Of a stretch of 64,000 nt of DNA, positions 18,571 to 53,929 are shown in pieces. A program made the position numbers and the translations under genes. A model generated the notes under the pieces. That model made no database searches. It worked only from the letters and a program-made list of their open reading frames with translations, and was not told the DNA's origin. The DNA is taken from the NCBI GenBank assembly GCA_016214695.1, contig JACRNY010000001.1, positions 248,001-312,000 on the forward strand, given 5' to 3'. Each line of letters opens with the position of its first letter. Within the stretch, counting starts at the first letter, position 1. The DNA is from Nitrosomonadales bacterium (lineage in GTDB: Bacteria; Pseudomonadota; Gammaproteobacteria; Burkholderiales; Gallionellaceae).

Positions 18571-18657
18571 GTGCATATCACTTGGCAAACATACTGAAAG
18601 GTATCGACGCAAAGTCTCCGGCCTAAGGGAAACTATGGCAGCGGGACCGCGACATGG
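18571..18657 (+). ncRNA. GEMM-I (c-di-GMP-I) riboswitch aptamer
   Basis: The core matches GEMM-I aptamers: GGCAAAC (18584-18590), a GAAA tetraloop in the P2 hairpin (18595-18598), GACGCAAAG (18606-18614), TCCGGCCTAAG and then AGCGGGACC. CCTAAG and TATGG form the standard 11-nt tetraloop receptor. The base equivalent to Vc2 G20 is G18584, consistent with c-di-GMP binding. My hand fold gives only a weak P1 helix. It precedes the 60-codon ORF at 18783, whose GGAGGGGG ribosome site can pair partly with ACCCCTGA at 18683-18690. Confidence 0.85.
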
Positions 18658-52093: not shown

Positions 52094-52338
52094 TCATCAC
52101 CTTCCCCAAGGCAAGACCAGGGGTTTGCCGGCGCTCACCCTGACGCAATCCATCCCGCTTTACCCGATATTTCAGTCACTTGAATTCCTGTTGGCACGAT
52201 GATGACAAGCGCTCACCCGGGGTGTCCGATCTCATCAATGCCCCGGCTTCTTTTCCCATTTCGAGAGTGTGGTCGGAGGCCAGGCAAAATCCCCTTGCCG
52301 TTTCAGGATTATTGGGTTGATAATGCCGCCCAGTAGTT

Positions 52339-52430
52339 GAGCAGTTAACCAAGAGCAAACCTATTGAAAAGTAGGGACGCAAAGTTTCCGGTCTAAGGAG
52401 CCCCAAGGCTCTACGACAGCGGGACTGCCG
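52339..52430 (+). ncRNA. GEMM-I riboswitch aptamer with A at the Vc2-G20 position
   Basis: GAGCAAACC (52353-52361), P2 hairpin CCTATT-GAAA-AGTAGG, GGACGCAAAG (52376-52384), TCCGGTCTAAGGAGCC with its hairpin (52388-52412), then ACGACAGCGGGACTGC (52414-52428). P1 pairs GCAGT (52341-52345) with ACTGC (52424-52428). Aligned with Vibrio Vc2, position 20 is A52354 instead of G. In Geobacter this change marks aptamers that prefer 3',3'-cGAMP (GEMM-Ib) and in Vc2 it lets cGAMP bind. It precedes the adenylate cyclase gene at 52535. Confidence 0.87.
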
Positions 52431-52493
52431 GCAGCCACGTCGCACCTGAGTGGTTCCCGTTAGCCCAAAGCTTCGTCCAGCCGTACCTTGTGT

Positions 52494-52530
52494 CCCTCCT
52501 GCCAGATAGTGTGTGCGGAAGTAAGGAGGG
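52494..52530 (+). promoter_or_regulatory. Anti-Shine-Dalgarno / ribosome-site hairpin
   Basis: CCCTCCT (52494-52500) is the exact complement of AGGAGGG (52524-52530), which is the ribosome site of the cyclase gene, 4 bp before ATG 52535. Pairing would block translation, so ligand binding by the upstream aptamer could switch it. The wiring between aptamer and helix is inferred. Confidence 0.6.
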
Positions 52531-52534
52531 CGTC

Positions 52535-53878
52535 ATGCATTTCCATATCAAGAACAGCGAAGTCTGGCTTCTGCTCATCGTCGCGCTATTGGCACTCGGC
52601 GCCAATCTTCCTGCCGAGGTCGTCGGCAACGTGGTCGATCCCAATCTGTTGCTGGTCGCATTGTCGGCGACCGTATTCATCGCGCTGTTCCGCTACCTCA
52701 AACTGATGCTGTTCCTCACGGTCGCGGTGCTGGCCATCGGTGCGAACCTGCCGGATCAGCTGGCGAGCCAGCTCGGCATCAGCCAGACCGCGATGATCGT
52801 GGCCTCCGGTGTGCTGGTGATCATGTCGCTGCTGTACAAGTATTACTACCGGCATCAAGCGCGCAACAAGGCAGCGGAAGAGAACGGGCTTGATACGACA
52901 GCGGAAGTGCCCGCGGCAGTCAGCCATTTGCGCGACACCATCGATTCCCGGCTCTCGATCATCTCCGCGATCACCCACGGCGACTTTGCCGCATTGCATC
53001 AGTTGCTGATCTCGGATGTGGAGGTCAATTTCAGCCAGGATGGGCAGATCCCGCTGTTCCTCGCCATCGAGAAGGGCAATGTCGATATCGTGCTGCTGCT
53101 GCTGACCCACGGGGCGAAACTCAGGATCAAGAACCAGCACGGACTGACCCCCACCGACCTTGCGCTGAAGCTGCGCTTCGCGCGCATCGCCAAGATCCTC
53201 CACTACGCCGAAGCGCAGAACATGTCGATCCAGAACCGGGCGGTCTACTCTTCCCAGCAGACGCGGAAGATGGCGGTGCTGTTCGCCGACATCAGCGGCA
53301 GCACCGCCTTGTACGAGCAGCTGGGCAACGAGACCGCGCTGAACATGGTCACGCGCACGCTGAACCTGCTGAAGCAGGAGGTCGCCAGGCACAAGGGCAC
53401 CCTGATCAAGACGATCGGCGACGAGATCATGTGCACCTTCCCCAATGCACTGCGGGCGGCACAGGCTGCACGCGCCATGCATCTTGTGATCGATGCCGAA
53501 AAACCCGGCGGCGAGTATCCCATCGCGGTGCGCATCGGCCTGCATTTCGGCGATGTCATCCTCAAGGCCAACGATGTGTTCGGCGATACCGTGAACGTCG
53601 CCGCCCGCATCGCCGCGATCACACGGGCACGGCAGATCTTGACCACGCAGGATGTCATCGATGCCCTGCCCGAGGAATACGCGAACATGGTAGAGCCGGT
53701 CACCCGCGCATCGTTCCGCGGCAAGCAGGATGCGCAGGTCGTGTTCCAGCTTCTGTGGGAACCCAATGATTCGCTGTCGAAACGGATCGGCGATGCGACA
53801 CTACGCAGACTGAAGGCAAATGATGAGGAACCGTCCGGTACCGAGCAGGACCTGCAGTTAGCCGAAGCCAGCAACTGA
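52535..53878 (+). CDS. Membrane class III adenylate cyclase with ankyrin-like repeats
   Basis: 447 residues from ATG 52535, with AAGGAGG (52523-52529) upstream. Three or four N-terminal helices (about 8-95) anchor it. Ankyrin-like repeats follow (AITHGDFAALHQLLISDVEVNFSQDGQIPLFLAIEKGNVDIVLLLLTHGAKLRI). The catalytic domain keeps both metal Asp residues (LFADISGSTAL, TIGDEIMC), the adenine-selecting Lys (LIKTIGDE) and Asp (FGDTVNVAAR), and the catalytic Asn/Arg of VNVAARI. It should make cAMP. A GEMM-I riboswitch with an A20 equivalent precedes it. Confidence 0.9.
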   Translation: MHFHIKNSEVWLLLIVALLALGANLPAEVVGNVVDPNLLLVALSATVFIALFRYLKLMLFLTVAVLAIGANLPDQLASQLGISQTAMIVASGVLVIMSLLYKYYYRHQARNKAAEENGLDTTAEVPAAVSHLRDTIDSRLSIISAITHGDFAALHQLLISDVEVNFSQDGQIPLFLAIEKGNVDIVLLLLTHGAKLRIKNQHGLTPTDLALKLRFARIAKILHYAEAQNMSIQNRAVYSSQQTRKMAVLFADISGSTALYEQLGNETALNMVTRTLNLLKQEVARHKGTLIKTIGDEIMCTFPNALRAAQAARAMHLVIDAEKPGGEYPIAVRIGLHFGDVILKANDVFGDTVNVAARIAAITRARQILTTQDVIDALPEEYANMVEPVTRASFRGKQDAQVVFQLLWEPNDSLSKRIGDATLRRLKANDEEPSGTEQDLQLAEASN

Positions 53879-53900: not shown

Positions 53901-53929
53901 AAAAAAGCCCGGTCGCACCGGGCTTTTTT
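53901..53929. terminator. Bidirectional rho-independent terminator
   Basis: AAAAAAGCCCGGTCGCACCGGGCTTTTTT is a near-perfect hairpin with T-runs on both strands, between the cyclase gene and the convergent membrane protein gene. Confidence 0.92.

Follow-up and report, generated by a model that had tools for sequence, protein, structure and literature searches.

A c-di-GMP-I riboswitch aptamer with A at position 20 lies upstream of a class III adenylate cyclase gene in Gallionellaceae

Introduction

Within a 64,000-nucleotide stretch of DNA (hereafter the window) from Gallionellaceae, iron-oxidising relatives of Gallionella, the leader of a predicted adenylate cyclase gene resembles a GEMM-I riboswitch and carries A rather than G at the base that selects the ligand. 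The locus raises two linked questions: which cyclic dinucleotide does this RNA sense, and what would its binding do to the synthesis of a different nucleotide, cAMP?

Results

A c-di-GMP-I aptamer with a weak or absent P1

The leader matched the c-di-GMP-I (GEMM-I) model RF01051 at 52344..52432 on the forward strand with 75.5 bits (E 5.3e-13; gathering threshold 35 bits), in agreement with the initial annotation, which had recognized a GEMM-I aptamer here and an A at Vc2 position 20. In the cmscan alignment, A52354 (+) occupies model position 11, where the consensus is G before a conserved GC; we take this position, in Vc2 numbering, to be position 20, the ligand-selecting base. The cGAMP aptamer has a matching A14 before C15 (PMC6274999). 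The equivalents of A47 (52381) and C92 (52428..52428, +, from the RF01051 alignment and invariant in the leader alignment) are present in the window. These two pocket residues and the G21-C46 pair are invariant in all 19 aptamers that we found linked to orthologous cyclases, as are A17, A18, G21, C22, A23 and A25, and differences among the 19 occur at N14-N16, N19 and N20.

Of the two helices originally drawn by hand, P1 and P2, only the latter stood. The P2 hairpin with its GAAA loop (52360..52375, +) is paired in 100% of alignment cells across 19 sequences, and P3 is also formed (98.9% of cells in the 19-leader alignment). For P1, the best match between the 5' and 3' sides of the window aptamer is 3 bp, candidates across the 19 orthologous leaders span 2-5 bp at shifting positions, and no consistent P1 helix closing the junction, as G14-C93 does in Vc2, was found among them. 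The hand-drawn helix was therefore rejected; in the predicted folds C93 is used by a hairpin, which we call H. The only 5-bp candidates belong to three leaders with G at position 20 (G001, G009 and G019), and members with A20 never exceed 4 bp. Hairpin H (52429..52459, +) begins at C93, in the place expected for the 3' strand of P1. All 19 leaders are predicted to form it, with energies of -5.0 to -13.6 kcal/mol when a hairpin starting at C93 is specifically asked for in each leader. RNAalifold also recovered it; 97.7% of its cells are paired, and in two pairs both sides have changed. P1 is thus weak or absent in these leaders.

N14, which is G in Vc2 and a key residue there (PMC9049102), is A in the window and G in 1 of the 19 cyclase-linked aptamers, but it is also variable in many other aptamers of the family and so is not unique to this group. 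The RF01051 model itself contains no P1. Vc2 requires P1 and Cd1 shows none (PMC9262584, section 21), so P1 is no strict requirement for membership of the c-di-GMP-I class. By sequence and predicted structure, the window leader belongs to that family, with P1 unsupported.

The window genome (2.66 Mb) has two other c-di-GMP-I aptamers, one of them outside the window, and both have G at position 20. The second aptamer within the window (18574-18654; 57.3 bits) lies upstream of a short Cys-containing open frame; in several relatives, aptamers of this type precede a bacteriohemerythrin-like frame (for example L113, L114, L121 and L125, judged by eye).

The downstream gene and its conserved linkage

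The gene downstream of the leader (52535..53878, +; start codon ATG at 52535) encodes a protein of 447 aa with hydrophobic N-terminal segments, ankyrin repeats and then a PF00211 domain (E 3.3e-19). Six residues, D252, K292, D296, D347, N354 and R358, are invariant in the 19 aptamer-linked orthologues; we take them to be the two metal-binding Asp residues, the Lys/Asp pair that selects adenine, and the catalytic Asn and Arg. The domain match and the six retained residues uphold the earlier assignment of the regulated gene as a class III adenylate cyclase, and the product should, judging from its sequence, make cAMP. Among the 60 PDB sequences listed, Ma1120 (4wp9) was the best match to the catalytic domain. 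A terminator-like hairpin lies 3' of the gene (53901..53929, +; one found, compared with a mean of 1.8 in shuffled sequence).

To assess the conservation of this arrangement, we looked for the cyclase by protein search in 34 genus genomes and 158 family genomes. This yielded 20 full-length cyclase orthologues including that of the window, the others being 49-79% identical to it; one orthologue (G023) is cut by a contig end. The aptamer lies about 100 nt upstream of the start codon in 19 of the 20, and the linkage is kept across cyclases 60-79% identical to that of the window. The exception is the most distant orthologue (G153), in which no aptamer was found in the 400 bases upstream of the start and whose genome is absent among those listed with an RF01051 match. 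Where the records with full-length orthologues are named (7 of 18 loci), they read Sideroxyarcus, Sideroxydans or Gallionellaceae or, in two cases, more broadly Nitrosomonadales and Gammaproteobacteria.

At six further loci (L116, L172, L174, L183, L195 and L198), in genomes G002, G036, G038, G040 and G042, a G20 aptamer is followed by a protein similar to the membrane module at the N-terminus of the cyclase. Five of these proteins are 228-249 aa long, too short to hold a cyclase domain, and the sixth, that of L172, is truncated near a contig end. The similarity of L116 comes from a BLAST match; the rest were judged by eye. On the receiving side, the window genome encodes 18 cNMP-binding domains (L308-L325) that are candidate cAMP receptors, 8 of which have a phosphate-binding-like GE...R[ST][AT] motif (by eye). 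Its two PF00325 proteins look Fnr-like and not like CRP, again by eye.

Adenine at position 20 is tied to the cyclase target

Searching other genomes for A20 aptamers ahead of the cyclase, a check proposed with the initial annotation, we found A in 12 of the 19 linked aptamers and G in the remaining 7. Within the genus, our reading covered every one of the 67 aptamers over threshold (L146, at 29.2 bits, fell below it and was left out): 16 are cyclase-linked, with A in 10 and G in 6, and the other 51 all have G. In the family outside the genus we read the best-scoring 106 of 154 places (the latter a hand sum). Three of these are cyclase-linked, with A in G064 and G096 and G in G102; the other 103 have G in 102 cases and A in one (G147). 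A20 therefore occurs in 12 of 19 cyclase-linked aptamers and in 1 of the 154 other aptamers read (Fisher p 6e-13, a value that ignores relatedness), with the proviso that A20 lowers the Rfam score, so that low scorers outside the genus beyond the best 106 could hold more of it. None of the first 109 others had A20, and the idea that A20 is strictly confined to cyclase-linked aptamers was given up once G147 had been read. The aptamer concerned (L371; G147:C263:44005-44089), the one A20 aptamer seen without a cyclase in the family, precedes a 538-residue histidine-kinase-like frame and then a response-regulator-like frame (by eye).

We had regarded retention of A among orthologues as a mark of GEMM-Ib, the cGAMP-selective subclass; position 20 is not so retained. 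Mapped onto the cyclase tree, the A/G label takes four changes (3-5 across bootstraps, with starred branches forcing two); 33 to 40 of 500 shuffles gave counts as low, which amounts to only weak clustering. The tie between A20 and the cyclase target is strong but short of fixation, and it suggests that A is selected and not merely tolerated.

In a sample of the phylum outside the family, 26 of 29 places over threshold were read, giving 2 A, 1 C and 23 G. Both A20 cases, the only ones among these 26, form a tandem of c-di-GMP-I aptamers in a single genome (L244 and L250, G184) ahead of a 295-residue frame whose product is maybe exported; the C at position 20 belongs to an aptamer of 71.3 bits (L245, G403). 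Three other aptamers (L140, L145 and L247) resemble the Geobacter cGAMP aptamer in having C21-G46 instead of G21-C46, but their position 20 is G.

Candidate sources of cGAMP

If A20 marked a dedicated cGAMP circuit, a cGAMP synthase might be expected among the nucleotide cyclases of these genomes. We located the residue diagnostic of Hypr GGDEF enzymes by PleD numbering, taking it to be the D of the GHxxGD motif. All 45 GGDEF domains of the window genome keep Asp here and none has the Hypr Ser; they include the two in the window (L011 and L160), already described as keeping the residue expected for c-di-GMP. In another A20 genome (G002), 45 of 48 GGDEF domains have Asp, one has Asn and two are degenerate and poorly alignable, and the Hypr Ser was found in none of the 48. 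Ser in place of the canonical Asp distinguishes Hypr enzymes (PMC6456294).

The window genome also encodes a CD-NTase (L164; G000:C2:621102-621476) that matches a PADLOC oligonucleotide-cyclase model with E 1e-143 and whose SMODS match falls below the Pfam cut-off. The neighbouring frame carries a HELGH zinc-protease motif, and the two may be a defence pair. We considered this enzyme as an explanation of A20 and rejected it, as SMODS matches occur in only 3 of the 34 genus genomes (2 over the cut-off), one of the three being an A20 genome; put differently, 1 of the 10 A20 genomes of the genus has a SMODS-type match, and that match lies below the Pfam cut-off. Together, the GGDEF and SMODS surveys weigh against a dedicated cGAMP circuit and are compatible with cGAMP from another source.

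A predicted translational switch in the leader

Upstream of the aptamer, a consensus scan returned a possible -10 hexamer, GATAAT (52319..52324, +; one found, shuffle mean 0.8, and so not above shuffles). The motif [GC]ATAATG was seen by eye upstream of the aptamer in 12 of the 19 orthologous leaders, and the transcript may start just downstream of GATAAT.

Between aptamer and gene, we found an element (52484..52498, +) complementary to the aptamer core at 52373-52385; in every one of the 19 leaders, no other part of the platform pairs better with the core than the corresponding element. The window element overlaps an anti-Shine-Dalgarno sequence, CCCUCCU (52494..52500, +), which can form seven pairs with the Shine-Dalgarno (SD) sequence AGGAGGG (52524..52530, +). 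Across the 19 leaders, with best partners picked by eye, the core-element duplex has a mean z of -1.5 relative to shuffled platforms; at most 10 of 200 shuffles equalled it in 9 leaders, and it was weaker than most shuffles in two (G006 and G029). The best partner of the SD overlaps the switch element in 16 of 19 leaders (by eye), and SD pairing is not stronger than with shuffled platforms over the 19 (mean z -0.3). Run on the whole leader, RNAalifold recovered the aptamer and hairpin H without any helix at the SD. The alignment is gappy in that region, and duplex energies were therefore used to judge SD pairing.

Forcing the aptamer to form lowered the mean unpaired probability of the SD over the 19 leaders from 0.30 to 0.15, with openness lower in 13 leaders, equal in 2 and higher in 4; in the window leader it was nearly unchanged (0.15 free, 0.14 forced). 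Forcing the aptamer costs about 4 to 16 kcal/mol in the model relative to the free ensemble, so the choice between the two would have to come from the ligand and from co-transcriptional folding.

These calculations are consistent with the following scheme. Ligand binding would fold the aptamer and release the downstream element, whose CCCUCC end would then cover the SD, so that translation would fall. Without ligand, the element would pair with the aptamer core and leave the ribosome site freer. High cyclic dinucleotide would then mean lower cAMP synthesis. The mean over the 19 leaders and the overlap of the core-pairing element with the anti-SD favour OFF, and we hold the leader to be a translational OFF switch with moderate confidence. 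Vc2 is itself a translational OFF switch (PMC9262584, section 21).

Discussion

The reading that best fits these data, to which we assign a probability of roughly 0.6, is that a c-di-GMP-I riboswitch acting as a translational OFF switch lowers cAMP synthesis, responding to c-di-GMP or perhaps to two ligands and serving no dedicated cGAMP circuit. The ligand is most likely c-di-GMP, and A20 probably lowers affinity or also admits 3',3'-cGAMP. Both the OFF direction and the effect on cAMP are what we infer from the modelled pairings. A coupling in the same direction exists in P. putida, in which c-di-GMP acts with FleQ to reduce both cyaA transcription and cAMP (PMC8125075). Counting against our reading are the nearly unchanged SD openness of the window leader, SD pairing and several core duplexes that do not stand out from shuffles, the close association of A20 with this one target, and the presence of a CD-NTase homologue in the window genome.

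The initial annotation had read A20 as the signature of cGAMP selectivity. Position 20 does set cGAMP against c-di-GMP preference in Gmet_0970, in which A20G reverses it (PMC6456294), and the concentration of A20 in cyclase-linked aptamers (12 of 19, compared with 1 of 154 others) would suit A20 members that are 3',3'-cGAMP-selective in the manner of GEMM-Ib, with ligand identity switched repeatedly between orthologues. We nonetheless think this improbable: the aptamers keep G21-C46 where the Geobacter aptamer has C15-G40 (PMC6274999), neither A20 genome surveyed has a Hypr GGDEF domain, the lone SMODS-type match in the genus A20 genomes is below cut-off, and the base switches between A and G ahead of a single gene. 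Because of that alternation, A alone does not show cGAMP sensing, and we rejected A20 as sufficient proof of it, the lack of Hypr GGDEF domains in both genomes pointing the same way; present evidence makes cGAMP sensing the less likely option, behind c-di-GMP and dual sensing. The same recurrence of A/G changes ahead of one gene instead suits a narrower form of our preferred explanation, in which A20 sets a threshold and the RNA binds c-di-GMP only, with affinity below that of the G20 orthologues. A wild-type Kd for c-di-GMP of 0.011 nM is quoted, with G20 and C92 mutants binding less tightly (PMC9049102), and position 20 is described as a selectivity factor and not a hard filter (PMC9262584); we put this form at a little short of even odds.

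Two other alternatives concern the switch itself. Ligand could raise cyclase translation, through hairpin H or another unrecognized element: hairpin H is conserved, with its two doubly changed pairs, and the SD opened when the aptamer was forced in 4 of the 19 leaders. The 19-leader mean and the overlap of the core-pairing element with the anti-SD speak for OFF, and we consider an ON switch unlikely but worth keeping in view. The variation at N20, N19 and N14-N16 might also be taken for drift in a decaying relic; yet none of the 19 departs from A17, A18, G21, C22, A23 or A25, P2 is fully paired and the linkage persists over cyclases 60-79% identical to that of the window, which makes decay very hard to credit. 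A bolder proposal, which we regard as doubtful, is that one orthologous riboswitch repeatedly changes its ligand, A20 forms reading 3',3'-cGAMP or both dinucleotides and G20 forms c-di-GMP, with a 3' hairpin in place of P1 and the dinucleotide setting cAMP in iron oxidisers.

If the preferred c-di-GMP reading is right, two second messengers are joined here by RNA alone, with a cyclic-dinucleotide riboswitch setting how much cAMP is made. The 19 natural orthologues, 12 with A and 7 with G ahead of the same gene, also form a ready-made set for asking whether the base changes the ligand or only the affinity, a question that to our knowledge has so far been put only to engineered mutants and Geobacter.

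Comparison with known systems

As far as our searches show, the riboswitch class is known and its target and platform are new: among the top literature matches, judged by title and the start of the abstract, none described a cyclic-dinucleotide (GEMM-I) riboswitch ahead of an adenylate cyclase, which is weak evidence of absence. The window leader shares with Vc2 of Vibrio cholerae (RF01051) the aptamer core, P2, P3, A47, C92 and G21-C46, as well as a suspected translational mode of control, and differs from it in A20, an unsupported P1, the predicted hairpin H at C93 and the adenylate cyclase target. With the Geobacter 3',3'-cGAMP riboswitches of the GEMM-Ib subclass it has A at position 20 in common; unlike them, it keeps G21-C46, sits in a genome in whose 45 GGDEF domains no Hypr Ser was found, and has G20 orthologues ahead of the same gene. 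A20 fits GEMM-Ib, but the other indirect tests of that subclass that we could make point elsewhere. As a class III adenylate cyclase, the regulated enzyme has the PF00211 domain and what we take to be the catalytic and adenine-choosing residues of its class, and is set apart by its N-terminal hydrophobic segments and ankyrin repeats. Finally, like the repression of cyaA by c-di-GMP and FleQ in P. putida (PMC8125075), the system described here would tie c-di-GMP to lower cyclase expression, in a direction that is predicted for our locus; there, however, a protein regulator acts at the promoter, and here the connection would be made by an RNA leader.
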